Assembly (NCBI GenBank): GCA_021777035.1
Contig: JAIQZR010000062.1
Location: 1 to 59,795, forward strand
DNA length: 59,795 bases
Direction of reading: 5' to 3'
DNA from: Candidatus Scalindua sp.
GTDB lineage: Bacteria > Planctomycetota > Brocadiia > Brocadiales > Scalinduaceae
The translations under genes and the position numbers were made by a program. A model generated the notes under the pieces. The model was not told where the DNA came from, did no database searches, and saw only the letters and a program-made list of their open reading frames with translations. Positions 5,536-22,409 of the stretch are shown here, piece by piece (the first letter of the stretch is position 1; every line of letters begins with the position of its first letter).

Positions 5536-5618
5536 AAAATACGCTTTCTTCTAACAAATAGGTGTCAAATATTTTTTTTCTTCCTGTAGCAAGAAAAAAC
5601 CACAAATAAATGTTCGTT

Positions 5619-7863: not shown

Positions 7864-8884
7864 GTTTAAGATCTTCCCATTTAATAACGGAATCAATACT
7901 AATATCACTTCCCGACTTCATACCAACAACTTTGTCTTTAAACGCTGCCGATATTCCGGTTCCAGGTCTTTTTATGTAAATATCATCAAAAGATATCGTA
8001 TCACCGGCTTTTATATCCTTTGCTGTTACAAGGCTCCTCCTCGCAATCTTTTTGAGATCATTTTCACTTATTGTTGGCTTTTTAATTCCATCTCCCATTG
8101 CTCTTTCAACATTCCTAATTGCGATTACCATCGCCTCTAACTCTTCTGGTTCAAGTGAAGCTTTATGGTCAGGACCTTCCATATTTCTATCCAGCGTAAA
8201 GTGTTTCTCAATAACTCTTGCCCCCATTGCAACGGCGGCCACTGTTATCTCAGTGCCCATCGTATGGTCGGAATAACCAACGGGCAACCCAAACGCCATT
8301 TCCATTGTTTTGAGCGCTCTAAGGTTTACATCTTCCATTCTGGCAGGATAACTTGATACACAATGTAAAATAGACAACTGTGGTTTTTTATCCATTGTAT
8401 TCCAAATTTCGTTGATCCAACTTATGGCTTTTTCAACTTCTCCTATGTAAGACATTCCTGTTGAAAGGATTACCGGTTTTTTCTTAAATGCAATATGTTG
8501 AATGAGGGGTTTATTTGTAATCTCTCCTGAAGAAATTTTAAATATGTCCACCCCTAAATCATCTAACATGTCTGCACTTTCTTCATCAAATGGAGTTGAC
8601 AGAAACAAAATATTTTTTTGCCTGCAATAGGCAAAAAGATATTTGTGAGTATTTGGTGACAACTCAAGCTTTCTCAACATTTCAATCTGAGACTCACTTG
8701 TACCCGTATTCTTGATTTGGTACCTTGCTTTATCAGCATTAGTGGTAACAAGTTTATCAGTCTTAAAAGTCTGGAACTTTACTGCGTCAGCACCGGCTTT
8801 AACCGAGACATCAATCAGCTTCTTACAAATCTCCAAAGAACCGTTGTGATTAACACCCGCTTCTGCGATTATAAAAACTTTCAT
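7856..8884 (-). CDS. neuB: Nonulosonic acid synthase (NeuB/LegI)
   Basis: This 342-residue enzyme has the NeuB TIM barrel (about 1-265), with AEAGVNHNG at residues 7-15 and KFQTFK following. A C-terminal SAF (antifreeze-like) domain begins near residue 285. It condenses phosphoenolpyruvate with the 6-deoxy-diacetamido-mannose made by the neighbouring 2-epimerase to give a nine-carbon acid. It overlaps the upstream acetyltransferase by 4 bp and the downstream NeuC by 8 bp, so it is translationally coupled in one operon. The choice between LegI and NeuB activity rests on the pathway context. Confidence 0.93.
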   Translation of the reverse strand: MKVFIIAEAGVNHNGSLEICKKLIDVSVKAGADAVKFQTFKTDKLVTTNADKARYQIKNTGTSESQIEMLRKLELSPNTHKYLFAYCRQKNILFLSTPFDEESADMLDDLGVDIFKISSGEITNKPLIQHIAFKKKPVILSTGMSYIGEVEKAISWINEIWNTMDKKPQLSILHCVSSYPARMEDVNLRALKTMEMAFGLPVGYSDHTMGTEITVAAVAMGARVIEKHFTLDRNMEGPDHKASLEPEELEAMVIAIRNVERAMGDGIKKPTISENDLKKIARRSLVTAKDIKAGDTISFDDIYIKRPGTGISAAFKDKVVGMKSGSDISIDSVIKWEDLKHA

Positions 8885-9516
8885 TCGGCAGGCACTCCTT
8901 TTACTTTAAGACCATCTCCCACATCATTTACGACAACTGCTCCTGCCGCAACAACAGAATTGTCGCCTATTTTGATACCTTGTATAATCGTAGCCCCTGC
9001 ACCTATAAATGTGCTATCACCAATGATAACTCCACCCGAAATTACTGCCCCCGGACAAATATGCACATGTTTACCGATCACACAGTCATGCTCAACAATA
9101 CTACCAGTATTAATTATAGTGTTTTCTCTCACGAAACTTCCCGATTGAATAATCACACCTGCCATTACTTGAACGCCTTCCGAAAGATTTACTTCATTTT
9201 CCTTGACAATAGCCTGTGGATGAATCTGGCATGGCACTGAAAAACCAATCTCTTTTACCGTTTTGTACAGACGAGCTCTTTTACTATTGTCTCCGACACT
9301 ACCAACACCGATACATGCCAGTGTAATCCCCTCTTTAATCTGCCTGGAAAGCAAATCGTCTCCCCCCAGAACAGGAACATCAAGAACCATAGCCTCTCTT
9401 TTCAGACCTGGATCCAGAATACCTGAAATCTCGTATCTGTCAGCAGCCCTGATAAGTGATATAAGGACTCTGGCATGTCCACCACTCCCTAAAATAATAA
9501 TTCTTTTCAAATACAC
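8881..9516 (-). CDS. neuD: Sugar O/N-acetyltransferase (NeuD/PglD/LegH)
   Basis: This 211-residue protein has an N-terminal Rossmann-like domain starting with ILGSGGHARV at residues 7-16. A left-handed beta-helix of hexapeptide repeats runs over about residues 95-205. This is the PglD/NeuD family, which acetylates the 4-amino group of UDP- or GDP-linked 4-amino-4,6-dideoxy sugars. The gene is one base from the aminotransferase that makes such a substrate (shared A of stop and start) and overlaps neuB by 4 bp. It therefore probably does the LegH step. A sialic acid O-acetyltransferase function is the alternative. Confidence 0.88.
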   Translation of the reverse strand: MYLKRIIILGSGGHARVLISLIRAADRYEISGILDPGLKREAMVLDVPVLGGDDLLSRQIKEGITLACIGVGSVGDNSKRARLYKTVKEIGFSVPCQIHPQAIVKENEVNLSEGVQVMAGVIIQSGSFVRENTIINTGSIVEHDCVIGKHVHICPGAVISGGVIIGDSTFIGAGATIIQGIKIGDNSVVAAGAVVVNDVGDGLKVKGVPAE

Positions 9517-10697
9517 TATCCTCTGGAGGAGAAATAAGACCTTATTTTTTCAACAGTAAATTCCATTTCTTCCTTTTTAATTCCTACGCTACACGGAAGA
9601 TTTAAAGCGGTATCATAAATATTTAAAGCGCTTTCCACTCTATATGCCTGACAATCCTTGTACATCGATAAGGTATGAATTGGTTTCCACATAGGTCTTA
9701 CCTGAATGCTACTAGAAAGAAGGTAATCTATCAAGGCCTTCTTGTGAAATGATGGAACCTTTATAGTATAGAACCAGAAATTACTCTTTACCCACGATTT
9801 TTCCCACAAAAATTCTATACTATTTATATTAGAGAAAAGATTTTGATACCAGAATGCATTCTTTCTCTTTATCTCCACAATCTTATCTAAACCTTCCATC
9901 TGAGCGACTCCCAAAGCAGCCTGAATATTTGTAAGACGATAGTTATAACCAATTTCGTTATGATCATATTCAATAGAATCGGTTTTTGCCTGCGTGCTTA
10001 AATGCTTAACTTTCTCTGCCAAATATCCATCATTTGTCACAACCATGCCACCACCACCCGAAGTTATTATTTTATTTCCATTAAACGATAGACATGCCAG
10101 TTTCCCAAAGGAGCCTGTTTTTTTACCTTTATATTCAGAACCAAGCCCCTCTGTCGCATCTTCTACAACAACAATTTTATACCGTTGACATAATTCGATA
10201 AGATTATCCATTTCTACCGGATGACCAAAAATATGAACAGGCACAATAGCCTTTATTCGTCTACCAGAGGCGTTATTATATGTGTACCCATCACTCTTCT
10301 GTGTACACTCCGTGTCCAGAAAAAGTTTTAACTTCTCTACATCGAGACACAACGTTTCTTGATCACAGTCAATAAATAGAGGCTCCGCTCCACAATATTT
10401 AACAACATTCGCTGTAGCAACAAACGTCAAAGTTGGAACGATTACCTCATCACCACTTTTTACATCACAAACGAGAAGAGATAAGTGCAGCGCAGAAGTT
10501 CCGTTAACAACAGCAACTCCATACTTACAACCAACGTATTCTGCCACCATTTTTTCAAATCTATTTACATAACTCCCAACAGAAGATACCCAACCTGTAT
10601 CTAGACATTCCTTAATATACTTCCACTCGTTACCTGTGATTGAAGGCTCCGACAGGGGTATCACATTTAATTTTTTATCAGATATTGTAGATGTCAC
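9516..10697 (-). CDS. legC: PLP-dependent sugar aminotransferase (LegC, DegT/DnrJ family)
   Basis: This 393-residue protein belongs to the DegT/DnrJ/EryC1/StrS family. The PLP lysine is K209 in FNGNKI, preceded by VVEDATEGLG with the cofactor-binding Asp and followed by a GGGG loop. It adds an amino group at C4 of the 4-keto-6-deoxy sugar nucleotide made by the LegB-like dehydratase. It overlaps LegB by 20 bp and NeuD by one base, showing tight coupling. The DTGWVSSVGSYV segment near residues 33-44 is typical of LegC-type members. Confidence 0.9.
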   Translation of the reverse strand: MTSTISDKKLNVIPLSEPSITGNEWKYIKECLDTGWVSSVGSYVNRFEKMVAEYVGCKYGVAVVNGTSALHLSLLVCDVKSGDEVIVPTLTFVATANVVKYCGAEPLFIDCDQETLCLDVEKLKLFLDTECTQKSDGYTYNNASGRRIKAIVPVHIFGHPVEMDNLIELCQRYKIVVVEDATEGLGSEYKGKKTGSFGKLACLSFNGNKIITSGGGGMVVTNDGYLAEKVKHLSTQAKTDSIEYDHNEIGYNYRLTNIQAALGVAQMEGLDKIVEIKRKNAFWYQNLFSNINSIEFLWEKSWVKSNFWFYTIKVPSFHKKALIDYLLSSSIQVRPMWKPIHTLSMYKDCQAYRVESALNIYDTALNLPCSVGIKKEEMEFTVEKIRSYFSSRG

Positions 10698-11676
10698 CCT
10701 TGTATCTCACTAAGTTTTCTTTGTCACTGAACCATTCTATGGTATTTAACAGGCCTTCTCGCAAAGTTGTTTCAGGTTCCCATCCTGTTATTTCCTTAAT
10801 CAGGCGATTGTTACAAACTAAACGTTCCACCTCGCTTTTGTCAGGCCGTTTTCTAATGTCTTCAGAAACGATTTCCACATCTTTTCCCGTTAGTTCTATT
10901 AATAATTTTGCAAGAGAACCTATTGATATTTCAGTACTGGAGCCAATATTCACTTCTTTACCAATCGCTTCATCTGACTGGGCCAGATGAATAAACCCCT
11001 TACATAGATCTCTAACATAATTAAAATCCCTTGTTGGATGTATAGTGCCTAGCTTTAACTCCTTTTTGCCATTTAACAACTGAGTTATTATGGTTGGAAT
11101 AACAGCTCGCGCAGATTGACGTGGGCCATATGCATTAAAAGGCCTTGCTATCACTACAGGCATTTCGAAAGAACGATAAAATGACTCAGCTATTTTGTCT
11201 GACCCTATTTTTGATGCAGAATAAGGAGATTGTCCTTGAAGAGGGTGTTTTTCGTCAATAGGAACATACTGTGCTGTCCCATATACTTCAGAAGTTGATG
11301 TAACTATAACCCTTTCAACATCATAATCTCTACATGCCTGTAATACATTTAATGTCCCCTTAACATTTGTGTCAATATAAGAGTCCGGAGAATGATATGA
11401 GAAAGGAATCGCTATTAATGCCGCAAGATGAAATACAATATCTACCTCTTTAACAGCAGTCCTAACACCATTTGGATCTCGAATATCTCCTGGAAGGACG
11501 TCTATATTTTTGAGTTTTTCTTTTGAAAACGTATCGAGCCATCCCCATGAGTTAAAGGAATTATAATAAGTAAAAGCTTTGACATTACAACCTTCATTTA
11601 AAAGAGCCTCAACCAAGTGGCTTCCTATAAAACCGTCGGCACCCGTAACTAAAATCTTTTTATTTATAAACCTCAT
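10678..11676 (-). CDS. legB: NAD-dependent sugar nucleotide 4,6-dehydratase (LegB-like SDR)
   Basis: This extended short-chain dehydrogenase/reductase has 332 residues. The NAD-binding motif TGADGFIGSHL lies at 11-21 and the catalytic YSASK at 152-156, after VTSTSEVYG. It should oxidise C4 and remove water across C5-C6 of a GDP- or UDP-GlcNAc, the entry step to legionaminic acid. It directly precedes and overlaps the aminotransferase that uses the 4-keto product. About 55 bp separate it from the RmlD-like gene upstream. The nucleotide is inferred to be GDP because of the PtmE-like gene in the same operon. Confidence 0.88.
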   Translation of the reverse strand: MRFINKKILVTGADGFIGSHLVEALLNEGCNVKAFTYYNSFNSWGWLDTFSKEKLKNIDVLPGDIRDPNGVRTAVKEVDIVFHLAALIAIPFSYHSPDSYIDTNVKGTLNVLQACRDYDVERVIVTSTSEVYGTAQYVPIDEKHPLQGQSPYSASKIGSDKIAESFYRSFEMPVVIARPFNAYGPRQSARAVIPTIITQLLNGKKELKLGTIHPTRDFNYVRDLCKGFIHLAQSDEAIGKEVNIGSSTEISIGSLAKLLIELTGKDVEIVSEDIRKRPDKSEVERLVCNNRLIKEITGWEPETTLREGLLNTIEWFSDKENLVRYKGDIYNI

Positions 11677-11731
11677 ATTTAATTTAAATCATAAATAATA
11701 ATTTGAAATGTATTGACCTTTTAGTGCTGAA

Positions 11732-12688
11732 TTAATTTCCAATAGTACGCGGTTCTTTCGTTTCGTCACCGACATTCCTTAATTCTTCCAACAAACCTCT
11801 TTTATAATCCTTATAAAACACCGTTAATGATTGATCTATAGTAGGCAGTTTATAACCAAGCGCGTTTTGTAATTTTTCTACATTTAAAGTAAGTTTTTTT
11901 CCCCTTTTAGCTTTAAAATTAAATTCATCTATTGAAATGGGAGTTATTAAACTATTGTCAAGTTCAAATAATTCGGCAATTTTTCTGGTAAAATTGTATT
12001 TTGAGCATGAATCAGCACTGCCACAATTATAAACTCCACTTAAATCTTTCTGTATGGCAACATCAATTATCCTGGCAAACTCCAATGTATATATAGAAGA
12101 GAAATATGCATCTTTAAAGCAAGTTATACTTCTATCTTCCTTAAGTTCATTCAATACCCACTCACCAAGACTTTGTTTGTCCTGTATATTCCATCCAAAA
12201 ATGTTTGTCCTGAAAATAAGAGATTGTTCCTTTTTTTCAGTCTCTAATTCTCCTTCGTATTTGGATATACCGTAATAATTTAATGGGTTTATTTTGTCGT
12301 TTTCTGAGAAATCTCCTTTTTCACCATCATATACGGCGTCTGTTGAAATATAAATTAACTTAACGTCTTTATGGATGACACACTCAACAAGATACTTAGT
12401 TGACAAAAAATTTACTTCTTTAGCTATTTTTTGATCAATTTCACACTGATCGACATTGGTTAATGAAGCACAATGCAAAATAATTGAAGGGTTGAATTCC
12501 TGTACAACTCTTTCAATAGCGACTTTACTGGTAATGTCGCATTTCTCTGTACGAATTCCATTAATAATAACAGGATGCGAATTGTACAGCCCAAGAATTT
12601 CATACTTACCATTAAAATAGTAAGCAAGATTGTTTCCCAACAGTCCGCTGACACCTGTAATTAATAATCTAGTTTTCGCTCTATACAT
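11732..12688 (-). CDS. RmlD-like NAD(P)-dependent sugar reductase
   Basis: The protein resembles dTDP-4-dehydrorhamnose reductases. It starts MYRAKTRLLITGVSGLLGNN, has YISTDAVYDGEKG, and has a YYGISKYEGE catalytic segment. An ATG at 12727 would overlap the previous gene, so the start at 12688 is chosen; the product has 318 residues. It follows a PseB-like dehydratase by 12 bp, so the two probably act in sequence to make a reduced 6-deoxy amino sugar. That pairing is seen in FucNAc-type pathways. A decayed fragment of a close paralogue lies at 16270-16437. Confidence 0.82.
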   Translation of the reverse strand: MYRAKTRLLITGVSGLLGNNLAYYFNGKYEILGLYNSHPVIINGIRTEKCDITSKVAIERVVQEFNPSIILHCASLTNVDQCEIDQKIAKEVNFLSTKYLVECVIHKDVKLIYISTDAVYDGEKGDFSENDKINPLNYYGISKYEGELETEKKEQSLIFRTNIFGWNIQDKQSLGEWVLNELKEDRSITCFKDAYFSSIYTLEFARIIDVAIQKDLSGVYNCGSADSCSKYNFTRKIAELFELDNSLITPISIDEFNFKAKRGKKLTLNVEKLQNALGYKLPTIDQSLTVFYKDYKRGLLEELRNVGDETKEPRTIGN

Positions 12689-12699
12689 AAAAAAGGTAT

Positions 12700-13737
12700 T
12701 TACTGAGGAATATCTTCCATAGACCAACGACTGTCCTCAATACTGTAGTCATCTGAAATTTCTTCTATTACCGTCCGAAGTTCTTCAATACTGATCTTTC
12801 GTGTATTGCTATCTGAAGTATATTGAAAACCTTCCGGGCAAGAACGACCATCATTATCAATATCTGAAAGTTTCTTTCCATCAGACGACATCTGCCTTAT
12901 CACATAACATTCTCTATATTCTATAGTATTACGCCCTTCATCTTCTCCAATCAAGGATTCGTGCATTTTCTCTCCAGGACGAATACCTGTTACTTTATGT
13001 AAACAATCCGGCGCTATTGCTTTTGCCAGATCTATAATACTCATAGATGGAATTTTAGGCACAAAAATTTCCGCTCCCTTTGCCAATTCTAAAACCTTGA
13101 TTACAAAATGAACACTCTGGTCCAGGGTAATCCAGAAACGTGTCATTCTAGAATCAGTTATAGGAAGTATCCCGGTTTTGGCCCGTTCCTTGAAGAATGG
13201 AACTACCGAACCACGGCTACCTACCACATTACCATAACGCACAACAGAAAAAATTGGTTTATCATCTCCTTTATATACATTTGCGGCAACAAATAGTTTA
13301 TCGGAACACAATTTTGTGGCGCCGTATAAATTTATAGGGTTACACGCCTTGTCTGTAGATAAGGCAATGACTTTCTTAACTCTATTTAACAACGCAGCAT
13401 CAATTACGTTCATTGCTCCCATAATATTAGTCTTAATAAATTCTTCCGGATTATATTCGGCAGCCGGTACTTGTTTTAGTGCGGCTGCGTGAATAACATA
13501 GTCTACCCCGTGAAATGCTCTACTTAACCGCTCTTTATCACGCACATCGCCAAGAAAATATCTTATGCATGGATATTTCTTCATACTCCAACGCTGCGAC
13601 ATTTCAAACTGCTTCAATTCATCCCGGCTAAAAATGATAAGTTTTTCAGGCTTATATTCTTTCAGTATAACCTGTACCATTTTTTTACCAAAAGAACCTG
13701 TACCACCAGTGATTAAAATTGTTTTATTATTTAGCAT
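12700..13737 (-). CDS. pseB: UDP-GlcNAc 4,6-dehydratase, PseB/CapD-like SDR
   Basis: This 345-residue SDR begins with TILITGGTGSFGKK and contains RDELKQFEM, both hallmarks of the PseB/FlaA1/CapE group of inverting UDP-GlcNAc 4,6-dehydratases. GDVRD, an STDKA segment, the YGATKLCSDK active-site region and the late GEKMHE motif are also present. The C-terminal extension (YTSDSNTRKIS) fits PseB-type proteins. It is the first intact biosynthetic gene after the toxin-antitoxin island. Since LegB is also present, this enzyme probably feeds a second amino-sugar branch with the RmlD-like reductase. Confidence 0.85.
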   Translation of the reverse strand: MLNNKTILITGGTGSFGKKMVQVILKEYKPEKLIIFSRDELKQFEMSQRWSMKKYPCIRYFLGDVRDKERLSRAFHGVDYVIHAAALKQVPAAEYNPEEFIKTNIMGAMNVIDAALLNRVKKVIALSTDKACNPINLYGATKLCSDKLFVAANVYKGDDKPIFSVVRYGNVVGSRGSVVPFFKERAKTGILPITDSRMTRFWITLDQSVHFVIKVLELAKGAEIFVPKIPSMSIIDLAKAIAPDCLHKVTGIRPGEKMHESLIGEDEGRNTIEYRECYVIRQMSSDGKKLSDIDNDGRSCPEGFQYTSDSNTRKISIEELRTVIEEISDDYSIEDSRWSMEDIPQ

Positions 13738-13761
13738 CTATGTCCACCCTCTATATTGTAA

Positions 13762-14043
13762 TTATGAATTAGACTTTGTTTGAAATACAACTCGGAACAC
13801 TTTTTGTATAATGATATCGCCGACTCTCGCAAATCTACTGGTCAGTGTTTCAAGATGATCGTATTCTTCTTCTGTGTAGCTTTCTTTAACACCAATTCCT
13901 GAACATATGGTATAGGATCTTTGCCGCCAGTGAACCGCATTGTCCAATATATTAATTGTGTCAAACAGGTATATCCTGGCTTTTCTATCCAGAGAATACA
14001 CTACCTCTTTAATTGACTGTATTTCGTATTGGCTGAGTCTCAT
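13762..14043 (-). pseudogene. Fused remnant: MNT start joined to partner-protein tail
   Basis: The 93-residue frame looks like two genes joined by a deletion. Residues 1-26 (MRLSQYEIQSIKEVV then DRKARIYLF) match the start of an MNT nucleotidyltransferase up to the point where GS...DxD should follow. The frame instead passes into a segment with EEEYDHLETLTSRFARVGDIIIQKVFR (about 58-83). That segment resembles the C-terminal part of small helical proteins encoded beside such nucleotidyltransferases. All catalytic residues are lost. It lies 24 bp upstream of the PseB-like gene. It may still be translated; function is doubtful. Confidence 0.6.
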
Positions 14044-14155
14044 TTTTTAAGTTTCATACCTTTTCTTATATGGATATTAGTATCTCAACAGCTTACTTCA
14101 GCAAACTACTCAAATCATGTATCGTTATTATAGGTGGTAGACAGAAGAATTTTTC

Positions 14156-14291
14156 TTAGTCCAAATTGAAATGATTTACTATTGCCAGTAAATATTTGTT
14201 AATATCTTTCAAATGGTGATGCAAAATATTGCAAACGATATCAAAGTTGATAGTTTCATATTCATGAACCAGTATATCCCTAAAGTCAACC
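14156..14291 (-). pseudogene. HepT (DUF86) 3' fragment
   Basis: About 44 codons on the minus strand match the C-terminus of the intact HepT gene at 18317-18739 almost residue for residue. They include the RDILVHEY (RX4HXY) motif and the final VNHFNL residues, with a TAA at 14156-14158. Similarity to the intact locus continues downstream to about 14108. No start codon or N-terminal part is present. The fragment begins where the next HEPN gene ends, so the two were joined by a deletion or recombination. Confidence 0.85.
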
Positions 14292-14678
14292 GTCTAAAAA
14301 GCTTTTCACATTTTCATATATTTCTCTTGAATTTTCATAAAATCTCTTTGCATCATCTGTGTCGGGCCGACCATCAGGCAACAGTCCTAGTTCGCCAGGA
14401 TATCTCGAATCGATGTAGAGTTTATTCAACAGACTGAGTAAGTCGTCAGCAATGTTTTCACTATAAACAGATGAAATTGTATTCTTCAATGTAATTAAAT
14501 TATGTGTTTTTATTGAGGACAATTCAAATTCTTCTACTATTGCCTTAAAGGTCTTTTCGATGCACTGCTGGGAATGAAAGGCCACGACATGAGTCAGTTG
14601 ATCATTACTCATTATCTCCTCTATCGTGTCCAAATCGCTTTTAGCTGACTTCAGCCATTCAGACGTAATAAGCTTCAT
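14286..14678 (-). CDS. HEPN-domain protein, partner of MNT
   Basis: This 130-residue helical protein has the HEPN pattern: EWLKSAKSDLD at the start, VVAFHSQQCIEKTFKA in the middle, and IKTHNL, the HEPN Lys-Thr-His signature. The start overlaps the upstream MNT nucleotidyltransferase gene by 4 bp. Unlike the other partners in this island, it lacks the RX4HXY motif of HepT RNases. It may be a binding partner of the nucleotidyltransferase rather than a toxin. Its stop lies within the joined HepT fragment, so the last residue or two may have been changed by the rearrangement. Confidence 0.85.
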   Translation of the reverse strand: MKLITSEWLKSAKSDLDTIEEIMSNDQLTHVVAFHSQQCIEKTFKAIVEEFELSSIKTHNLITLKNTISSVYSENIADDLLSLLNKLYIDSRYPGELGLLPDGRPDTDDAKRFYENSREIYENVKSFLDG

Positions 14679-15007
14679 GAAAGTACCCTTCCTTCACTAA
14701 GGATTTTACGGGAGAAAAGACTGTCCATCTCAACAAATTTCTTAAATTCAGGTTTTGTATATACCAGCAAATCTATTGGAATTTTTTTTTCTATAGATCT
14801 TATTGCCCTGCTTACTTCCAGATAGTTTTCAGATTTTTGTTTAAAACTTTTTGGATATTCATTTTTATCAATTACAACCAAAAGGTCAATATCACTATTT
14901 TTGCCCGGGTTACCATAGGCATACGAACCAAACAAAATTATCTTCAGGATTTTATCAACTTTTGCTAACTTGTTAACAATCTCTTTTTCTATTTTTTCTT
15001 TCACCAT
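14675..15007 (-). CDS. MNT minimal nucleotidyltransferase
   Basis: This 110-residue pol-beta-fold nucleotidyltransferase has the motif GS-X10-DID (GSYAYGNPGKNSDIDLLVV), giving the metal-binding aspartates. In the MntA/HepT type of toxin-antitoxin system such proteins transfer AMP to a tyrosine of the HEPN partner. The partner gene overlaps by 4 bp downstream. It is the last complete module of the island before the operon. The region upstream carries a decayed copy of the regulator tail. Confidence 0.88.
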   Translation of the reverse strand: MVKEKIEKEIVNKLAKVDKILKIILFGSYAYGNPGKNSDIDLLVVIDKNEYPKSFKQKSENYLEVSRAIRSIEKKIPIDLLVYTKPEFKKFVEMDSLFSRKILSEGRVLS

Positions 15008-15447
15008 CTTAGATGACCTAACCTTAAGTATTATAAACTATAAATGATCCTCTATTTGTCTAATAAACAGGTCTACTTCAATTTGATTTGATCCATCTGC
15101 AATATTATTTATTTACCGTGATTTTGTTTCCACCTTCTAGTGCCTACTGCACCACGACTACTATCCCTTGCACCAATAATTTTCATGTTTTAAACTTCTC
15201 CCGCATCAGTTACCTTTTATTCTAAATGTCCTATATGCAGACCAACTCCCTCTCAGTTACACGTAAAAAAAACGCATAACATCCAATCTTACAAATATTT
15301 ACATCACTTCTACGACTATTCTTTATTCTCTAAGAACAACAACCTTCACATTTTTTTTCTTTACAAAAACCGTCTATTTCTTCTTTATCAAAAGGCGCAA
15401 GCATTAATAGCTTGGCAATTCCTCAGCCACCCCTCCAATACCAGGAC
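15008..15447 (-). pseudogene. Intergenic scar with decayed MarR-type regulator tail
   Basis: No intact gene is seen. Positions about 15236-15440 are a diverged copy of the 3' end and downstream flank of the regulator gene at 19325-19912. Read on the minus strand, one frame gives LLMLAPFDKEEIDGFCK, and after a one-base shift another gives KNVKVVVLRE then a stop. The intact protein has LIFASLDKEKIDSFCK and NVKFVTLRD at the same places. The flank CCCTCTCAGTTACA is also shared with 19250. The remaining bases (15008-15235) hold short frames with no support. Confidence 0.75.
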
Positions 15448-15918
15448 TCAGGACACAATCTTTTCCTTGAACGCCTCAAAATCCTTTTGAAAGGGAGCTA
15501 TGAGTGACGCTGTCTTCTCTGATAATTTTATGACTCTTTCCGCATCGAACTTGTAAGAGTAAGCATGTCTGAAAACATGTCTGAAGCCTCTAAGTTCATC
15601 CAGCAACATAAAGGATTCATCCGCCAATAGTCTTGGCCTGACTCCTTCGATCTGCAGCCTCATCCTGTTAAGCAATTCTGAATGATAGCCGGATATGTCA
15701 GCAATCTGGTTTTCAAAGAATCTGGCTATGAGTTTAAACAGGTCTTCGTATGCCGAATATAAATTGTGAAGTTTGTAAGCCAGACTGTTAATCAGGTCTT
15801 CATCATCAAGTTGAGACGTCAGCCTATTGGATTTCTCCTGAATCGCGGATTGGAGTTTGAATATTTCTTTCTGCTGAGCCTCTAGCTCCGCAACTAAAAT
15901 TTTCACTCTTTTTTCCAT
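15448..15918 (-). CDS. HepT-like HEPN protein (antitoxin/toxin pair member)
   Basis: This all-helical protein of 156 residues has an N-terminal coiled-coil-like stretch (about 1-35) and a HEPN core carrying the RX4HXY motif as RHVFRHAY near residue 114. That motif forms the RNase active site in HepT, and its tyrosine is the AMPylation target. The start overlaps the upstream nucleotidyltransferase gene by 16 bp. It belongs to a HepT-like group longer than the DUF86 proteins at 16487 and 18317, so this module was acquired independently of those. Confidence 0.8.
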   Translation of the reverse strand: MEKRVKILVAELEAQQKEIFKLQSAIQEKSNRLTSQLDDEDLINSLAYKLHNLYSAYEDLFKLIARFFENQIADISGYHSELLNRMRLQIEGVRPRLLADESFMLLDELRGFRHVFRHAYSYKFDAERVIKLSEKTASLIAPFQKDFEAFKEKIVS

Positions 15919-16274
15919 TGAAACCCTTCACTCAATATCTTATCTTTAAAACTGATATCCTCAAGGTGTATGATGTTTACATCTCTCCCAATTTTACTGC
16001 TAATGAAACTCGTAACATAAAAGAGCTCGTCTCTGTCGAGTCCCAGAAATGCAATATCGACATCAGAATGCTCACTGAATCTATTCATTTCCAGCACAGA
16101 GCCGAATATGTATGCAGCCTCAAACTGAACTTCTTCAGAAAGTTTTCCGAGAGTATTGCATGCTTCTTTCAGCGTTTTTTTCCGCAGCTTTTCTCTTTCC
16201 GCATCTTTCCTCTGATAAGCGTCTCTTATTTTCTGCATTTCGAATTGTTTCTCTGTATGATCTGACTTCTTCAT
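15903..16274 (-). CDS. MNT minimal nucleotidyltransferase
   Basis: This 123-residue protein has a charged N-terminal helix (about 1-45) before the nucleotidyltransferase core AAYIFGSVLEMNRFSEHSDVD. The spacing is GS-X11-DVD, one residue longer than the usual X10. DVNIIHLEDIS near the end supplies the third acidic strand. It pairs with the HepT-like gene downstream by a 16-bp overlap. The likely role is AMPylation-based neutralisation of that partner, inferred from the family. Confidence 0.82.
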   Translation of the reverse strand: MKKSDHTEKQFEMQKIRDAYQRKDAEREKLRKKTLKEACNTLGKLSEEVQFEAAYIFGSVLEMNRFSEHSDVDIAFLGLDRDELFYVTSFISSKIGRDVNIIHLEDISFKDKILSEGFQWKKE

Positions 16275-16437
16275 TTCCCGAACAAGTCGGAATTATAATA
16301 TTGAAGAATTTAGGAACGGAATTCATTAATGATTCTTTTTATAGAATCTTTACCAGCAATGATCACATCTATCAGTACAGACCCCGCTTATAATAACTGA
16401 ATGCGAATTGTATAACCCTAAGATTTCGTAGTAAATT
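16270..16437 (-). pseudogene. Frameshifted fragment of RmlD-like reductase
   Basis: Translated on the minus strand from 16437, this gives YEILGLYNSHSVIISG. After a one-base shift at about 16360 it gives IAGKDSIKRIINEF, then further broken similarity. The intact RmlD-like protein encoded at 11732-12688 has YEILGLYNSHPVIING and ITSKVAIERVVQEF at corresponding positions. It is therefore a decayed paralogue fragment of about 55 codons lacking both ends, between two MNT/HEPN modules. It shows that polysaccharide genes once lay within the island. Confidence 0.8.
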
Positions 16438-16486
16438 AAAGTCGGAACGGTATTGCATATTCTACTTGTCTGACTTTATGTTTTTA

Positions 16487-16870
16487 TTAAATTTTCATAT
16501 CTGCTATGATTTTGTTAATAGCTCTCATCATTTCAGGTATATGCTCAGGATATACGGCATACACTACCTCTGCATCTATATCAAAATAGTGATGCGTTAT
16601 TATATCCCTCATTCCTTTTGCTTTCTTCCAGTCGATGTCAGGATAATTTGAAAGGAGTTTTGAATTGGTCAGTTTGTCTATCTGTTTTAACGCCTCACCA
16701 ATATTTATCAGTTGCATACATATACTATCAAGCTTTTCAAGACCGATGTCATCCTTAATAAAATCATCACTTGACTGGATCGTTTGAAATCTCTTGGTAA
16801 TCTGTCCCAGTGACCAGCTTATCTTCTTCAGGATATCGATAACAAGTTCTCTGTCATACATAAATGACAT
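16487..16870 (-). CDS. hepT: HepT-like RNase (DUF86)
   Basis: This 127-residue DUF86/HepT protein has the catalytic RX4HXY motif as RDIITHHY near residue 97, and the family's INIGEALKQI helix. HepT proteins cleave RNA and are silenced by their nucleotidyltransferase partner. The start overlaps the MNT gene upstream by 17 bp. The alternative ATG at codon 4 (MYDRE) would nearly remove the overlap and is plausible. It is only distantly related to the HepT at 18317. Confidence 0.88.
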   Translation of the reverse strand: MSFMYDRELVIDILKKISWSLGQITKRFQTIQSSDDFIKDDIGLEKLDSICMQLINIGEALKQIDKLTNSKLLSNYPDIDWKKAKGMRDIITHHYFDIDAEVVYAVYPEHIPEMMRAINKIIADMKI

Positions 16871-17150
16871 CCCGCTCTATTCTGTGCTTTAAAGCCTTGT
16901 TCATCTTTTCCCTTAGTCTTACAACATCTACTTTGCTACCAAAAGCCTCTTCAATGGTCTGTTTAATGCCTATCAGATAAAACAAGTCTGGCTTTTCAAG
17001 CTCTACTACTATATCTATATCACTCTCACCTGTAATATTACCTCTAGCACAGGAACCAAAAATTCCGATCCTTTTTACTCTAAATTCTCTCTTAAAAAAC
17101 TCTTTTTGGGTTTGCAGAAAATCGATTATCTGGTTAGTTGCTAATGGCAT
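16854..17150 (-). CDS. mntA: MNT minimal nucleotidyltransferase (MntA-like)
   Basis: This compact 98-residue nucleotidyltransferase has the motif GSCARGNITGESDIDIVVE (GS-X10-DID) and a later KVDVVRLRE strand. The small size and downstream overlapping DUF86 gene match the MntA/HepT toxin-antitoxin type, in which the MNT protein adds AMP to HepT. It begins 40 bp after the neighbouring module's second gene, so the two modules may share transcription. Confidence 0.88.
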   Translation of the reverse strand: MPLATNQIIDFLQTQKEFFKREFRVKRIGIFGSCARGNITGESDIDIVVELEKPDLFYLIGIKQTIEEAFGSKVDVVRLREKMNKALKHRIERDVIYV

Positions 17151-17189
17151 ATAACACCCCTTTATCCTTGTCTCTTATATATGATTATG

Positions 17190-17621
17190 TTATCCCTCTT
17201 TGCAGTACTCATCTTCTATTATAGCGACCACTCTCTCCATCAAGTCACTGTAACTTATTAGTTTTGCATATATCTTATCAAAATATTCCACTCTGTAAAT
17301 GTGGCTAAGCATATTTCTATCATCTATCATTTCCATTAAAGCCTCATAACTTTTCTGCTCTATATGCCTGGACAAAAAAAGGTTCTTTATTGCGTCCTTA
17401 GGAGAGTTTGTATCTAAACCCGCAAATAGATACAAGAATCTTTTCACTATTTTCCATGTCAGCTCAGAACAATATTCAAATTTCTGAACCTGTCCATTTT
17501 TTATACTATCCCGCACCACTTCATCAAAGTTAGATGTTTCAATGTGCAATGACCGGACAAAGCCTTCTACCGCTTGTTTATATGTATTAAATTTAGATCG
17601 AAATATTTCCCTAGGTTCCAT
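17190..17621 (-). CDS. Nucleotidyltransferase substrate-binding protein (HI0074 family)
   Basis: This 143-residue protein belongs to the HI0074-like HEPN family. It has the SLHIETSNFDEVVRDS helix, FEYCSELTWKIVKRFL, SPKDAIKNLF, and the late DRNMLSHIY segment carrying RX4HXY. It is the partner of the HI0073-type nucleotidyltransferase encoded upstream. The overlap of the two genes is unusually long, 55 bp. The tyrosine-bearing motif suggests it could also be an AMPylation target or RNase; that is inference. Confidence 0.87.
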   Translation of the reverse strand: MEPREIFRSKFNTYKQAVEGFVRSLHIETSNFDEVVRDSIKNGQVQKFEYCSELTWKIVKRFLYLFAGLDTNSPKDAIKNLFLSRHIEQKSYEALMEMIDDRNMLSHIYRVEYFDKIYAKLISYSDLMERVVAIIEDEYCKEG

Positions 17622-17926
17622 ACATGGATTCTCCCTTTTAGCACCATATTTTTGAATTCTTCACCTACAAGATTAAAATCTACAATCTCAACCTTATAAG
17701 GTATAATCGAATTGTCGAGTTCATTAATTATCTTATAATAAAGTTTTCCAAGTGGTTGTTCACCTATAATTCCTATATCGATATCAGAGCCAAAGTTACA
17801 AGATCCATCTGCACGTGAGCCGAAAAGGAAAACATGATACCTATCCTTTTCAATATACTTTAGAACTATCTCCCGCGCAATTTTCACATATTCTTCTTCA
17901 TGCAATTTATTTTCTACCCTGTCCAT
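17567..17926 (-). CDS. MNT nucleotidyltransferase (HI0073 type)
   Basis: This 119-residue protein has the core motif GSRADGSCNFGSDIDIGIIG (GS-X10-DID) and a YKVEIVDF strand holding the third acidic residue. The C-terminal tail (about residues 100-119) is encoded within the 55-bp overlap with the partner gene, and may be an extension caused by loss of an earlier stop. It pairs with the HI0074-type protein. A fragment of the MarR-type regulator lies upstream, as for the module at 14286-15007. Confidence 0.86.
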   Translation of the reverse strand: MDRVENKLHEEEYVKIAREIVLKYIEKDRYHVFLFGSRADGSCNFGSDIDIGIIGEQPLGKLYYKIINELDNSIIPYKVEIVDFNLVGEEFKNMVLKGRIHVWNLGKYFDLNLIHINKR

Positions 17927-18033
17927 CTTGTATATCCTGTTTTTCTATCGGTCTTATTGCCCCGACGATATGAGGTGCGTCATCCGTGCCCGACGAATGC
18001 CATGTCAAGTTACATTAATTTACAGACTATTTA

Positions 18034-18272
18034 TCAGTCTCTAAGAGTAACAAATTTCACATTTTTCTGCACTTTACAGAAACTGTCGATTTTTTCTTTA
18101 TCTAAAGATGCAAAAATCAATACGCTAGTATTAGATTTCACCAACTTATCTCAATCAATCGACAGCATCAATAAGTTTGAAATACGATCCTCGGAACGGT
18201 GTATATAATAGTTCGGCAATCTCTCCATCCCCATAATGTTGTAGCCAAACCACTCTTTTCTTTCTTTTTCGT
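18034..18272 (-). pseudogene. 3' remnant of the MarR-type EPS regulator
   Basis: The last 36 codons before the TGA at 18034-18036 encode exactly the same residues as the C-terminus of the intact regulator at 19325, from VKSNTSVL to KFVTLRD. About 75 bp of unrelated or shifted sequence follows upstream. Similarity then resumes at about 18213-18272 (VDEKERKEWFGYNIMGME against VDEKKEGEEWFGYTVIGME). The DNA-binding half is gone. The shared flank begins near 18008. This is a recent duplicate fragment. Confidence 0.88.
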
Positions 18273-18316
18273 CAACTTATGTATCGCAATTACACCTGAC
18301 AGACAGAAGAATTATT

Positions 18317-18739
18317 TCAACCCAAATTGAAATGATTCACCATTGCCAGTAAATATTCGTTAATATCTCTCAAATGGTGTTGCAAGATATTGCAAACTAT
18401 ATCAAAGTTGATAGTTTCATACTCATGAACCAGTATGTTCCTAAAGCCAACCATAGAAATCATTTTCTCAGCCATCTCTGCTTTTATTACTCCCTTATTC
18501 TGAAGAATATAGAAGATTTCATTTAGGCTGCCAGCAACGCCCCACCCTTCATCTGAGATTACATGGCTTCCGATATCAATGCATCCCTGAATGGCAAGCT
18601 GAAGATTATGTAATACGATATCTTGTATATCAAAGTCATTCTTTAATGATTCTAAAGAAATATTTTCCTTGTTCTTCAACCTTGATAGATTATGTCGTAT
18701 AAGAGAGATCTTTCTTAAGACGACTGATTTATTAACCAA
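18317..18739 (-). CDS. hepT: HepT-like RNase (DUF86)
   Basis: This 140-residue HepT/DUF86 protein has the RX4HXY motif as RNILVHEY near residue 107 and the conserved HVISDEGW segment near residue 61. It overlaps the MNT gene upstream by 8 bp. It is a close paralogue of the decayed fragment at 14156-14291 and a more distant one of 52713-53168, which has RNRIVHDY and the same HIISDEGW. These form one HepT subfamily spread through the window. Confidence 0.88.
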   Translation of the reverse strand: MVNKSVVLRKISLIRHNLSRLKNKENISLESLKNDFDIQDIVLHNLQLAIQGCIDIGSHVISDEGWGVAGSLNEIFYILQNKGVIKAEMAEKMISMVGFRNILVHEYETINFDIVCNILQHHLRDINEYLLAMVNHFNLG

Positions 18740-19172
18740 TGATATCTTCCTTCATCGCGACAACCATTCCACTTTTCATCCGATCTTCAAGAAATTGAAA
18801 ATCCAGACATTTGATTAGTCTGTAAGCTCTGAAGGATCGATGTGTCTCTTTATCTGCTTCAAAAACGACCTGCCCCCTACTTAGAATCTGCAAGGAAAGA
18901 AGCTCACCCACCTCTTGCAAAAAAACAAGGTCAACATCTCTTCTTATCAGTCCAGAAATTTCCGTCTGATAGCGAACTCGACTCTTTTGACTTTCTATCA
19001 TATCTTTGTATGGAGTAGTTAGTAATGCAACATCCACATCACTAGTCATAACAGCCTTTCCCGTAACAATGGAACCATAGAGATAAACTGCAATTACTTC
19101 CTTTCTATTCTGAAAATATTCGATTAGCTTCTCTTTTAATGCCTTATTACACATAACACCTAAAAGTTCCAA
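18732..19172 (-). CDS. mntA: MNT nucleotidyltransferase (MntA-like)
   Basis: This 146-residue nucleotidyltransferase has the motif GSIVTGKAVMTSDVDVALL (GS-X10-DVD), a RRDVDLVFL third strand, and a helical C-terminal part. It is the first module after the regulator at the head of the island and shares 8 bp with its HepT partner. Sequence around the motif (IAVYLYGS then VTGK) is close to the MNT protein at 53161-53601, so the two modules are paralogous. An in-frame ATG seven codons in (MCNKALK) is a possible alternative start. Confidence 0.87.
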   Translation of the reverse strand: MELLGVMCNKALKEKLIEYFQNRKEVIAVYLYGSIVTGKAVMTSDVDVALLTTPYKDMIESQKSRVRYQTEISGLIRRDVDLVFLQEVGELLSLQILSRGQVVFEADKETHRSFRAYRLIKCLDFQFLEDRMKSGMVVAMKEDIIG

Positions 19173-19324
19173 GTTGAAAATATCACAATTTATAATTAAA
19201 TGTCTTTTCCAATTGTTTTAACCGCTAAATTGGCGATCTACACACCAATCCCCTCTCAGTTACATACAGAAAATCATATAACGTCCAATATCACAACAAG
19301 TTACATTAATTTACAGACTATTTA

Positions 19325-19912
19325 TCAGTCTCTAAGAGTAACAAATTTCACATTTTTTTGCACTTTACAGAAACTGTCAATTTTTTCTTTATCTAAAGAT
19401 GCAAAAATTAATACGCTGGTATTAGATTTCACAAATTGCTCCATACCAATTACCGTATAACCAAACCACTCTTCTCCCTCTTTTTTTTCGTCAACAACCG
19501 CATCTAGTTCCAAGCGTAATTCTTTCAGTACAATAAATAGAACTTCTGATATATGATTTATTCCATATATTGAAACATCTTTCACACCATCATTTTTTAA
19601 GTGTACAACCTTGTCTCTGATTACCCTCTTTGCCTCCAGGTAGAAATGAATAGTACTTTCCACTCTTTTGTAGAGTAAACTTGACTTCTCCCTGGCACCT
19701 TCCGGAGTAATTAAATATCTTATTTTCTTTGCATCAATATTCTTTATTTTGATCCAGCCTTTTTTGACCATCTTTTTCAAAAGATGATTCACCAACCCCA
19801 GCGCGATACCAACTTCTTTAGAGAGTTCCCTCTGTGTCAGGTAGCCGTTGTTTTCCAACCTTTCCAGAATTTTCAGCTCCCTTACATCCAAATTGCCAGT
19901 TTCTTCGCTCAT
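19325..19912 (-). CDS. MarR-type winged-helix regulator of EPS-associated family with C-terminal sensor-like domain
   Basis: Residues 1-85 are a winged helix-turn-helix. The segment LTQRELSKEVGIALGLVNHLL and the following wing resemble EPS-associated MarR-family regulators found beside polysaccharide loci. Residues 100-195 look like a Rossmann-type domain (VKDVSIYGINHISEVLFIVL, then a G-V-G strand pattern) that could bind a nucleotide sugar; this is inference. The ATG at 19912 has GGAG 7 bases upstream, so it is preferred to the TTG at 19924. A sigma70-like promoter with a palindrome lies upstream. It heads the minus-strand run leading to the nonulosonate operon. Confidence 0.82.
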   Translation of the reverse strand: MSEETGNLDVRELKILERLENNGYLTQRELSKEVGIALGLVNHLLKKMVKKGWIKIKNIDAKKIRYLITPEGAREKSSLLYKRVESTIHFYLEAKRVIRDKVVHLKNDGVKDVSIYGINHISEVLFIVLKELRLELDAVVDEKKEGEEWFGYTVIGMEQFVKSNTSVLIFASLDKEKIDSFCKVQKNVKFVTLRD

Positions 19913-19980
19913 TAATAACTCCAAAACGATCAGCCCATATTCCGATCATACAACGATAAGGATTTGTAGAAACACATTAT

Positions 19981-20027
19981 GTTCATTCAGTGAACGCTAA
20001 TTCTAAAAAAAACCCCCATTTTGTCAA
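19981..20027 (-). promoter_or_regulatory. Promoter and candidate operator of the regulator gene
   Basis: Read on the minus strand, TTGACA (20022-20027) is followed after 16 bases by TAGAAT (20000-20005), close to the sigma70 consensus. The palindrome GTTCATTCAGTGAAC occupies 19981-19995, with 5-bp arms, across the expected transcription start near 19993. A repressor bound there would block initiation. Autoregulation by the gene product is the simplest reading, but is not shown by sequence. Confidence 0.65.
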
Positions 20028-20079
20028 GATTTTTTTTATTTAATATACCATATGTTGTACTTGTTGACAAAAAAAGCTA

Positions 20080-21714
20080 CTAATGCAAAACTTCATACAA
20101 AAGCACACTATGTTTTGCTAAAGGAGTTTCTTCCGGATATTTATATGCTAACACCATTTTCTTGTCTTTAATTGGCCGTAGAATTGCTTTTTCTATAACT
20201 ATATACTCCTCATATGTTAACAACATATAATCAACTTTTTTTGTTTGTGCCGAGACGAGTACATTATTAATAGTTTCCATCTGAACATGTTTCCCTCCGG
20301 CATAATAAGCATTTCTTGCAAAGGTGCTCAAAATTGATGGAAACGGTTTATGAGAATGCTCTTTCACCCATTGACCCGCTTCCTTAATTCCAATCTTATC
20401 AAAACCCTGTGGCTTTAATGTCTTTGGCAATAAAACGCTGATAACCACAAGCAGTACAATTAGTTGAACACTCCACGTACTCTCCAACAACTCTTTAAAA
20501 CCCACTATAAAACTACAATTATGAAATTTTTCATGTGTCCACATGCCAGCCTTATAGATGCCAATTCCGACACAGAAAACGGCCGGAATGACCAGAGGCA
20601 TCAAATGCCTTCTACTCGGATACACAAAAACGTCGCCACTGCTTGTTAAATGAGTAATGCTTAATCTGTAAAGTATAAACAAGTAGAAAACAGTAATAGT
20701 TACTGTATACAATCCAAAAAGTTGTTCTTTTCTAACTCTTGACCAGTTTACAACTCCAATTATAAAAAAAATAAACAAAACCGTGTGAAATGTATCTATA
20801 TACTTTTTTGTAATATGTAAAATACTATTTAAATGCAGTGGATAACCTGTCATTCCGGAAGCAGCCCGTTCGGTAAGCTCTCTGCTTAGCTTCCACTGTT
20901 TAGCATCATCTTTCTCAGGCGATATATGACTATTTTGCCCACGAGTACCCGCTTCGACACCTACCATATGAGACAAATCTTTTTTCTTTGTAAGACGCCA
21001 ATCACCCGTCTCTTTTTTGATGTAAACGAGATACGGCATTGAAAATACAAGAAACGAAATAATCAATATCAGGATCGAAATCAGCTTTTCCCCCCATAAT
21101 ACCCTGATCCTGGTACAGCCCTTCAAGGCACAAAATGAGACAACGATGATAATAATACCTATTCCTTCAGGACGTGTAAGGTAAGCAAATGCTGAGCATA
21201 TCCCTGTCAAAGAAAATAAAAGAAACCTCCTCTTCGTTATCGCAAAATAACCTAAACCAAACGCAGAAATGAAGAAAAAGAAATATGTAGATTCTGAAAT
21301 GATCTCTGCAGAAAATCTTACAGCATAGGGATGGAAAGCTAAAATAACAGAAGAGACAAATGCAACCTTCCGATCAAAAACACTTTTACCAATCAGATAA
21401 AATACAATTACAGTCAATGTTCCAAAGAGAACAGATATAATCGTACCAGACAACTCCATGTCTGGAACACCCTTATACAGCGTCGCCATAATCAAAGAGT
21501 ATAGGGGGTGATAATCGTGCCCTAATGCACTCGAAAAATCACCACTGGCAAAGTACTTTGCATTTTGTATAAAAACGACACTATCATTCTTTATTACATA
21601 GGTAAAAAAACTCAAGTATATTCTCACTGACAGAGAAAATACTAATAGTGACCAGACATACTTGTCATTGAAAACGCTTTTTGCCTTATCGTGCTCTAAC
21701 GCTATAGTTTTCAT
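20080..21714 (-). CDS. Membrane glycosyltransferase, GT39/PMT-like (ArnT-type)
   Basis: This 544-residue protein has about ten hydrophobic segments. The first periplasmic loop carries DSVVFIQNAKYFASGDF and HDYHPLYSLI, which resemble the acidic and HP-containing loop of dolichyl/undecaprenyl-phosphate sugar transferases (GT-C fold). FHPYAVRFSAEIISESTYFF in the following segment also fits. It probably transfers a sugar from a lipid carrier to a surface molecule. It lies upstream of the regulator on the same strand, outside the island, and may be part of the surface polysaccharide system. Confidence 0.75.
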   Translation of the reverse strand: MKTIALEHDKAKSVFNDKYVWSLLVFSLSVRIYLSFFTYVIKNDSVVFIQNAKYFASGDFSSALGHDYHPLYSLIMATLYKGVPDMELSGTIISVLFGTLTVIVFYLIGKSVFDRKVAFVSSVILAFHPYAVRFSAEIISESTYFFFFISAFGLGYFAITKRRFLLFSLTGICSAFAYLTRPEGIGIIIIVVSFCALKGCTRIRVLWGEKLISILILIISFLVFSMPYLVYIKKETGDWRLTKKKDLSHMVGVEAGTRGQNSHISPEKDDAKQWKLSRELTERAASGMTGYPLHLNSILHITKKYIDTFHTVLFIFFIIGVVNWSRVRKEQLFGLYTVTITVFYLFILYRLSITHLTSSGDVFVYPSRRHLMPLVIPAVFCVGIGIYKAGMWTHEKFHNCSFIVGFKELLESTWSVQLIVLLVVISVLLPKTLKPQGFDKIGIKEAGQWVKEHSHKPFPSILSTFARNAYYAGGKHVQMETINNVLVSAQTKKVDYMLLTYEEYIVIEKAILRPIKDKKMVLAYKYPEETPLAKHSVLLYEVLH

Positions 21715-21779
21715 AAGTAAATTAAAATTTAAGAATTAAGGAAGTTCCTCAATTCGCAACTCCTAAATCCCTGAGCCGG

Positions 21780-22409
21780 TCAAGTGTACTTTCCTCCATA
21801 CTTCTCACCAAAGACTATTTTATCCAAACTTAACCTCGGCCTGGGAGATGGATCTTCGTCTGGGATTCCAACCGGCAAAAGTGCCATGACCTCAATATGG
21901 TCCGGAATATCAAGGATTTCTTTTACCTCATTATCTTCATACCATCTTACCCAACAGGTACCAAGACCGATCTCCACTGCCTGCAAAACAATATGTTCAA
22001 CAGCTATCGCCACATTTGCTGCTGCTGCAACCATCAGGGCATCCTTTGTAACAGTACTCATTCCCTTCTCAAGGTATGGAATAAATACTTCCCTCGTTCT
22101 CTCAGGAAGAGCACCTGACTCTATAAGTTCATTCACTCTTACCGGAAATTCCTTAAATGCCTTTAAATCTGCACAACAAACTATTATTATAGAAGCTCGT
22201 TTAATTTGTTTTTGATTATGCGCCGCCTTTTGTAGCATTTTCTTCGTATCATCATCCTTGACTACTACAAATCTCCAAGGCTGTGTGTTTGTTCCTGACG
22301 GTGCCAATCTGGCACTTTCAAGTAAGAGCTTGATTTTTTCTTCCGGAATAGGGTCAGACTTAAATTTCCTTATACTCCTTCGCGCTCTTATTGCTTCACT
22401 TACATCCAT
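21780..22409 (-). CDS. Nitroreductase-family flavoprotein
   Basis: This 209-residue protein has the family's N-terminal RARRSIRKFKSDPIPEEK, the FMN-contacting SARLAPSGTNTQPWRF (about 33-48), and the late GLGTCWVRWYEDNEV segment. Members bind FMN and reduce nitro compounds, quinones or flavins, or act in cofactor biosynthesis. The length is typical. The upstream gap to 22745 holds a repeat. There is no operon partner with a clear functional link. Confidence 0.88.
   Translation of the reverse strand: MDVSEAIRARRSIRKFKSDPIPEEKIKLLLESARLAPSGTNTQPWRFVVVKDDDTKKMLQKAAHNQKQIKRASIIIVCCADLKAFKEFPVRVNELIESGALPERTREVFIPYLEKGMSTVTKDALMVAAAANVAIAVEHIVLQAVEIGLGTCWVRWYEDNEVKEILDIPDHIEVMALLPVGIPDEDPSPRPRLSLDKIVFGEKYGGKYT

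Follow-up and report, generated by a model that had tools for sequence, protein, structure and literature searches.

The type VII toxin-antitoxin (TA) pair HepT/MntA of Shewanella oneidensis (SO_3166/SO_3165) consists of a HEPN protein and an MNT partner encoded by overlapping genes. Class I type VII pairs are defined by the RX4HXY motif in the toxin, while it has been left open whether class II pairs are TA systems (PMC7641770). Two other described loci bear on how such genes accumulate. Homology-facilitated illegitimate recombination has been proposed for the orphan-immunity arrays of the Vibrio cholerae type VI secretion system, in which modules are added successively and a 3' gene end is displaced behind each newcomer (PMC5361080). 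A putative TA pair, ntaAB, lies inside the pneumococcal cps capsule locus and was proposed to help keep that locus (PMC3541774). Here we describe five MNT/HEPN pairs, M1 to M5, that lie between an exopolysaccharide (EPS) regulator-like gene, REG, and a nonulosonate operon in 59,795 nt of a contig of the anammox bacterium Candidatus Scalindua (JAIQZR010000062.1; this whole stretch is called the window). The assembly has a size of 4.16 Mb and is 95% complete and 5.5% contaminated.

We consider it rather probable that the REG-to-operon interval is a TA accretion hotspot bordering conserved chromosome on one side and an exchangeable surface-sugar locus on the other. The evidence is entirely comparative: it comes from the sequences of draft genomes, and the titles of several mark them as metagenome-assembled. 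On the minus strand, from 19924 to 13737, the reading order is REG, M5, M4, M3, M2, M1, a 93-codon open reading frame (ORF) and PseB. The five pairs stand head to tail with MNT upstream of HEPN, as an earlier note on this DNA had described. The two genes of a pair overlap (by 4, 16, 17, 55 and 8 nt), all five pairs have intact reading frames, and the gaps between modules measure 39-440 bp. The features, in reading order, are:

19325-19924, minus strand: REG, MarR/winged-helix EPS-associated regulator (HTH_24, 5.8e-14; TIGR04176, 61.6 bits, cut-off 88)
19220-19322, minus strand: conserved leader element 3' of REG, with the hairpin GTTAYRYR..YRYGTAAC followed by TGAGAGGG
18732-19172, minus strand: M5 MNT, predicted MntA-like adenylyltransferase antitoxin (NF047752, 73.6 bits, cut-off 60; PDB 5yep_A, 8.9e-5)
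18317-18739, minus strand: M5 HEPN, predicted HepT-like RNase toxin with RX4HXY (PF01934; NF047751, 140.3 bits, cut-off 60; PDB 6m6u/5yep, E 2-3e-22)
18223-18276, minus strand: further piece of REG scar 1 (75% to 19439-19495)
18006-18144, minus strand: REG scar 1, truncated REG 3' end (96% to 19297-19435)
17567-17926, minus strand: M4 MNT (PF18765, 1e-9)
17190-17621, minus strand: M4 HEPN of HI0074/NTase_sub_bind type with RX4HXY (PF08780, 1.2e-18; TIGR01987, 61 bits, cut-off 55.8)
16854-17150, minus strand: M3 MNT (PF18765, 1.3e-14; PADLOC PDC-S09, 93.5 bits)
16487-16870, minus strand: M3 HEPN, DUF86/HepT-like, with RX4HXY (PF01934, 4.6e-20; NF047751, 34.2 bits, below the cut-off of 60)
16363-16430, minus strand: fragment resembling part of an rmlD-like gene (72% to 12537-12604)
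16277-16314, minus strand: copy of an intergenic repeat that is dispersed in related genomes, ending at the M2 block boundary
15903-16274, minus strand: M2 MNT (PF18765, 1e-8; GS-X11-DXD spacing)
15448-15918, minus strand: M2 HEPN, HepT-like_2, with RX4HXY (PF20797, 2.5e-29)
15222-15409, minus strand: REG scar 2, REG 3' end plus a second leader copy with hairpin core at 15249-15280 (76% to 19225-19413)
15033-15080, minus strand: 48-nt scar (96% to a HEPN gene 3' end at the REG locus L050 of genome G014)
14675-15007, minus strand: M1 MNT (PF18765, 1.7e-14)
14286-14678, minus strand: M1 HEPN of PF05168 type without RX4H (PF05168, 3.1e-19)
14110-14291, minus strand: scar of an M5-type HEPN 3' end (86% to 18272-18452)
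13762-14043, minus strand: remnant of a sixth nucleotidyltransferase/partner module, fused and with an internal deletion (matches in G044)
12700-13737, minus strand: PseB, first gene of the nonulosonate/surface-sugar operon (TIGR03589, 501 bits, cut-off 407.75)
6694-12727, minus strand: RmlD-like, LegB, LegC-type aminotransferase, NeuD, NeuB and NeuC genes

Pieces of three genes, namely REG, an M5-type HEPN gene and an rmlD-like gene, thus lie in the spacers, and modules in four other genomes are bracketed by similar fragments. For example, REG-plus-leader scars lie on the far side of the modules at the sister loci L045 and L047, and at L050 pieces of the M5 MNT and M5 HEPN genes flank an M2-like pair. 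At L139 (G014), an M5-type pair comes after an UpxY-family gene, and beyond the pair lies a 94-nt copy (88%) of the UpxY 3' end, in which the stop codon is no longer at the same position. At L049, a 156-nt copy (91%) of an MNT 5' end precedes a DUF433/DUF5615 pair, and the whole MNT gene comes after it. We found no self-repeats in 7 kb at the module-free loci L046, L048 and L004, and elsewhere the window yielded a single pair of direct repeats that are at least 45 nt long and lie within 7 kb of each other. The 93-codon ORF beside PseB is without any Pfam family match. Its residues 1-29 are 83% identical to G044:C261:14830-14916 and its residues 24-86 are 78% identical to G044:C261:14429-14617, two open frames about 0.2 kb apart, and longer relatives of both parts were found elsewhere. 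The ORF is what is left of a sixth module after fusion and internal deletion.

Presence, absence and turnover in related genomes, which the earlier note had proposed to compare, revealed turnover at a fixed place. REG orthologues in relatives are 72-86% identical over most of their length (89-90% over 136-137 residues at a contig end), and REG is the last gene kept in shared order before the variable locus. Upstream of it, L005 is collinear with the window for about 10 kb at 80-87%; downstream, gene content varies from locus to locus and sugar-type genes recur. A scan of named genomes with REG returned 12 loci titled Candidatus Scalindua (four), Candidatus Brocadiaceae (two) and other Planctomycetes or Planctomycetota (two); the remaining four carry other or uninformative titles, two of them at 48% and 31% identity. 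The locus L004 (JAJFGV010000060.1) is titled Alphaproteobacteria, and its REG is 86% identical to that of the window with upstream DNA at 75-87%; it is probably a misnamed or misbinned Scalindua contig.

MNT/HEPN genes lie downstream of the regulator at six of the nine REG-orthologue loci with at least 4 kb visible there (the window, L045, L047, L049, L050 and L051); L046, L048 and L004 are module-free, and the contig-end loci L052, L053 and L054 were left out. In other families of the order none of 15 regulator loci has such genes, a count made after dropping 5 of 20 loci with less than 4 kb downstream and with profiles grown from the window's family, which may miss distant members. The contrast of 6/9 with 0/15 gives a one-sided Fisher P of 6e-4 with related genomes treated as independent, and their relatedness makes any P value optimistic. 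PF18765 itself is present in the outgroup: the 14 of 15 genomes scanned have 6-40 PF18765 matches each, and in G051 one listed match lies about 10.6 kb from the regulator on the opposite strand, just outside the examined stretch. Around paralogous regulators of the window's family (L055-L067), MNT/HEPN genes occur in the examined stretch at 4 of 13 loci. The window's own genome has 19 PF18765 matches; at least four of these lie no more than 8 kb downstream of REG, where a uniform distribution would place 0.037. Across ten genomes, two of which (G011 and G003) show less than 1 kb downstream of REG, at least 14 matches fall within at most 8 kb, against 0.23 expected. The profile labelled HI0074 drifted to take in MNTs, and its labels were used only as "MNT or HEPN".

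The modules share the direction of the regulator and the sugar genes, as had been noted for the window, and this extends to relatives: all MNT/HEPN genes match their regulator at the six REG-orthologue loci (36/36) and at four paralogous-regulator loci (16/16), 52 of 52 genes at ten loci. Other TA-type genes at sister loci include a DUF6036 nucleotidyltransferase, DUF433/DUF5615 and HicA, and at L047 sugar-type ORFs lie between modules. Two further observations concern these relatives. At L056 (G013:C27, 1600-9300), dense short direct and inverted repeats surround a paralogous regulator together with HicAB-like (by eye), MNT/HEPN and DUF433/DUF5615 genes. At L049, an ORF that resembles a transposase by eye lies beyond the modules on the other strand (oriented 5591-6472).

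Some modules have moved recently. Between the window and L045, which belongs to another species, DNA identity is 80% for REG and 96% and 94% for M5 and M2, and four-fold sites differ at 19/51 in REG versus 5/52, 4/37, 5/32 and 4/46 in the M5 and M2 genes. M5 and M2 have thus diverged far less than the REG beside them, and moved more recently. A DNA search of 17 family genomes found M5 matches over at least 800 bases at five places including the window (frames were not all checked). Those in the window, G008 and G013 directly follow REG; the one in G001 adjoins a paralogous regulator, and the one in G014 an UpxY-family gene. Phage or plasmid cargo was considered and set aside: a viral-contig scan with the M5 HEPN returned no relative and a plasmid search with the M5 MNT returned two weak matches. 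These searches covered two of the ten module proteins, and transfer may still have occurred.

The end products suggest, at better than even confidence, stepwise accretion by one-sided homologous, otherwise illegitimate recombination. Incoming DNA would pair by homology on one side only, either at the REG 3' end plus leader, at the UpxY 3' end, or at the end of a resident HEPN or MNT gene, and its far side would be joined illegitimately. The resident gene would therefore be left whole and a fragment of it displaced to the other side of the new module. Over repeated rounds the array would grow, and the block closest to REG would be the newest. The uniform direction may have arisen because transcription against the long sugar operon is avoided, or because the modules are transcribed together with it. 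The modules may persist because their loss is punished (addiction), because they act against phages, or both; neutral survival is a further possibility. The scheme resembles that of the V. cholerae arrays, but the window keeps whole TA pairs rather than orphan immunity genes, and its anchor is a sugar-locus regulator with its leader. It also differs from ntaAB, a single Fic/DOC-type pair of non-typable strains, in being a multi-module array at a regulator junction. The scars document in the DNA itself that modules were inserted at gene ends, with no recombinase in evidence, and with a fixed address, readable scars and genomes with and without modules, the arrival and order of the modules become testable.

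Several observations, in addition to the optimism of the P value, count against this account. At L057 an M1-type HEPN gene is interrupted by a cassette that contains HicA; three bases of the target are gone, and no flanking duplication is visible. The rmlD-like fragment is not a 3' end, and the L049 scar is a 5' end. Thus, no single rule fits every junction. Repeats other than scars also occur at module-bearing loci (458 nt at L045, several in L047, L051, L055, L056 and L058); such loci are thus generally rich in repeats. REG scar 2 is 76% identical to its own REG and 80-82% to the REG of L053 and L045, and some blocks may therefore have arrived already assembled. Module copies also occur away from sugar genes: in G015 an M2 copy lies among GTPase, cupin, glyoxalase and multihaem-cytochrome genes, and an M3-type MNT lies near PIN, Transposase_31 and DUF433 genes. 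Finally, the mechanism is read from end products and not from a recombination event.

Other routes to the array were considered and set aside. Among the ORFs classified between REG and PseB, which do not include every small ORF, there was no integrase or transposase. Nor did a search of 12500-22000, in which att-type sites were not modelled, find inverted repeats of at least 30 nt. A site-specific cassette system was provisionally set aside on these two grounds. The dispersed intergenic repeat, which ends in TATAATTCCGACTYGTTCGGG, is plentiful in G003 and G001, with some copies in G014, G009 and other genomes. It was dropped as a cassette boundary or mechanism, since it recurs at many places and nothing seen at its copies, whose neighbouring genes were not classified, ties it to modules generally.

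Amplification of one pair was also ruled out: similarity among the five is short or distant, with a best MNT-MNT match of 43% over 30 residues and no HEPN-HEPN match at E 1e-3. This agrees with the proposal that different modules accumulated here. The HEPN partners represent four families by Pfam, in line with the minimum given in the earlier note (PF05168, PF20797, PF01934 and PF08780), with NCBIfam also used in the assignment. The RX4HXY motif is found in four of the five, as that note had stated: M2-M5 have it, and a motif search did not find it in M1. All five MNTs match Polbeta (PF18765) above its cut-off. GSX10DXD is present in the MNTs of M1, M3, M4 and M5; in M2 the spacer is 11 residues.

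These pairs probably work like type VII toxin-antitoxins of the HepT/MntA kind. By analogy with that system, each HEPN would be an RNase toxin that its MNT silences by AMPylating the tyrosine of RX4HXY. M3, M4 and M5 have the class I combination of a PF01934 or PF08780 HEPN with an adjoining PF01909 MNT. M2, with a PF20797 HEPN and an MNT below the PF01909 cut-off, and M1, with PF05168, fall outside it; M1 instead shows the class II features of PF05168 without RX4H and a PF01909 MNT with GSX10DXD. For M5, both proteins score above the NCBIfam cut-offs and have matches among the chains of the solved complex 5yep. The M4 HEPN passes the HI0074 model, and the M3 HEPN stays below the cut-off of NF047751; the MNTs of M1-M4, with scores of 36.7-48.2, do not reach their cut-off of 60, and no relevant NCBIfam model was found for the M1 and M2 HEPNs. 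Thus, type VII action appears best supported for M5, followed by M4 and M3; it is likely for M2 and uncertain for M1. The window resembles HepT/MntA in its paired, overlapping genes and in these motifs. It differs in stacking five unlike pairs in one interval, in M2 with its GSX11DXD spacing and PF20797 toxin, and in M1 without RX4H; the activity of its pairs is putative. We found no link of HEPN/MNT arrays to polysaccharide loci in the openly licensed PMC literature at the level of titles and abstract beginnings.

Two explanations of why the modules gather here are compatible with accretion. Under the first, which we hold possible but only tentatively, EPS loci recombine often, short DNA lands in them, and addictive modules survive there without benefit and without regulation. 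The rmlD-like piece and dispersed repeat in the spacers, the remnant sixth module, the HicA-containing cassette inside the L057 HEPN gene and the many repeats at module-bearing loci all fit such debris. Strict co-orientation and five pairs with intact frames argue instead for some selection, which addiction alone could supply.

Under the second, which seems rather unlikely, anti-phage systems gather where phage receptors, the surface sugars, vary. The defence island raised in the earlier note stays possible through the match of the M3 MNT to the PADLOC candidate PDC-S09, and HicA, DUF433/DUF5615 and the DUF6036 nucleotidyltransferase at sister loci point the same way. However, PDC-S09 is a candidate only, and the interval contains no complete recognised system. 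A PADLOC search of the ten module proteins gave candidate families at best and not the cluster of recognised systems that would define a defence island; matches to named systems are weak (the best is Specificity_I, 24.9 bits). The same set of loci allows us to ask whether the modules protect or police the variable surface-sugar locus.

The element that follows REG bears on a third explanation. About 100 nt long, it is found by alignment 3' of REG in all 11 orthologous loci that reach that far, from which its profile was also built, and copies lie inside the REG scars of the window, L045 and L047. It forms a hairpin with a 9-pair helix in which 94.4% of cells are paired (14 sequences). Three of the nine pairs change on both sides; the covariation score was reached by 1 of 500 shuffles, the count of pairs changed on both sides by 82 of 500 and the pair types by 375 of 500. 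Rfam gave no relevant match (a single irrelevant one, E 0.98). A search for the exact pattern gave 19 occurrences across 15 of 59 genomes and none for the reversed control; it misses variant copies in G008, G009, G010 and G013. In six loci of family f5, which we take to be the Brocadia/Kuenenia side of the same order, the regulator is preceded by a copy. At L155 the gene before the copy is an UpxY-family NusG paralogue (NCBIfam, 125.7 bits, cut-off 100), and at L152 the corresponding gene resembles the UpxY family by eye. Copies near sugar-type ORFs were also seen in L153, L156, L160, L167 and L168; these ORFs resemble nucleotide-sugar dehydrogenase, NeuB, WecA-like and polysaccharide-export genes by eye or, for NeuB in L156, by blastp to a protein of the window. 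No recognised sugar-type gene was found near the copy at L170.

We regard the element as a candidate EPS leader, with an inferred role in antitermination. In lying close to a NusG-paralogue gene and to sugar-type genes in some relatives, it resembles the ops/RfaH and UpxY/LoaP systems (PMC7819879). It differs in that its hairpin, whose function here is putative, is longer than the 12-nt ops of that paper, in that it lies after REG in the window's family, and in that the UpxY-type gene of the window's own genome is on another contig.

With such a leader, the modules could be read from the REG promoter under an UpxY-type antiterminator, tying the toxin/antitoxin balance to expression of the sugar locus. 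Simple consensus scans detected an 11/12 promoter-like site upstream of REG (20027-20000) and no terminator-like site between REG and PseB. Together with the co-oriented genes, this permits co-transcription, and the conserved hairpin after REG makes it plausible. Sugar-type genes near the leader, its position right after the NusG paralogue at L155, and the M5-type pair beside an UpxY-family gene in G014 fit as well. Nevertheless, we judge such growth control improbable. The gaps between modules leave room for private promoters, further promoter-like sites lie on the same strand at about chance density overall, and module content varies among genomes, so that a single specific coupling cannot hold generally. 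The leader and sugar-type genes are also present at three REG loci that lack modules. The surface-polysaccharide link once suggested for the array is supported as a positional one within the window's family, with these loci and the G015 copies as counter-examples; its EPS regulator holds as a relative of TIGR04176 rather than as a full model match. Very improbable, finally, is that the leader is an antitermination landing pad from which UpxY-loaded polymerase reads through insertions and the array locks the surface-sugar locus in place; if so, modules would pile up before the sugar genes without silencing the operon, and with antitoxin supply dependent on that transcript the array would punish cells that lose or switch the sugar locus.

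Two related genes or pairs were observed outside the interval. Elsewhere in the window, a further MNT/HEPN pair (52713-53601, minus strand) is 31-35% identical to M5. It lies between Peptidase_M17 and UvrA family genes rather than at a sugar locus, and its MNT does not match the motif pattern. At L055, near a paralogous EPS regulator, the first half of a single ORF (9510-10211, minus strand) matches MntA and its second half HI0074; the ORF represents a fused MNT-HEPN gene.

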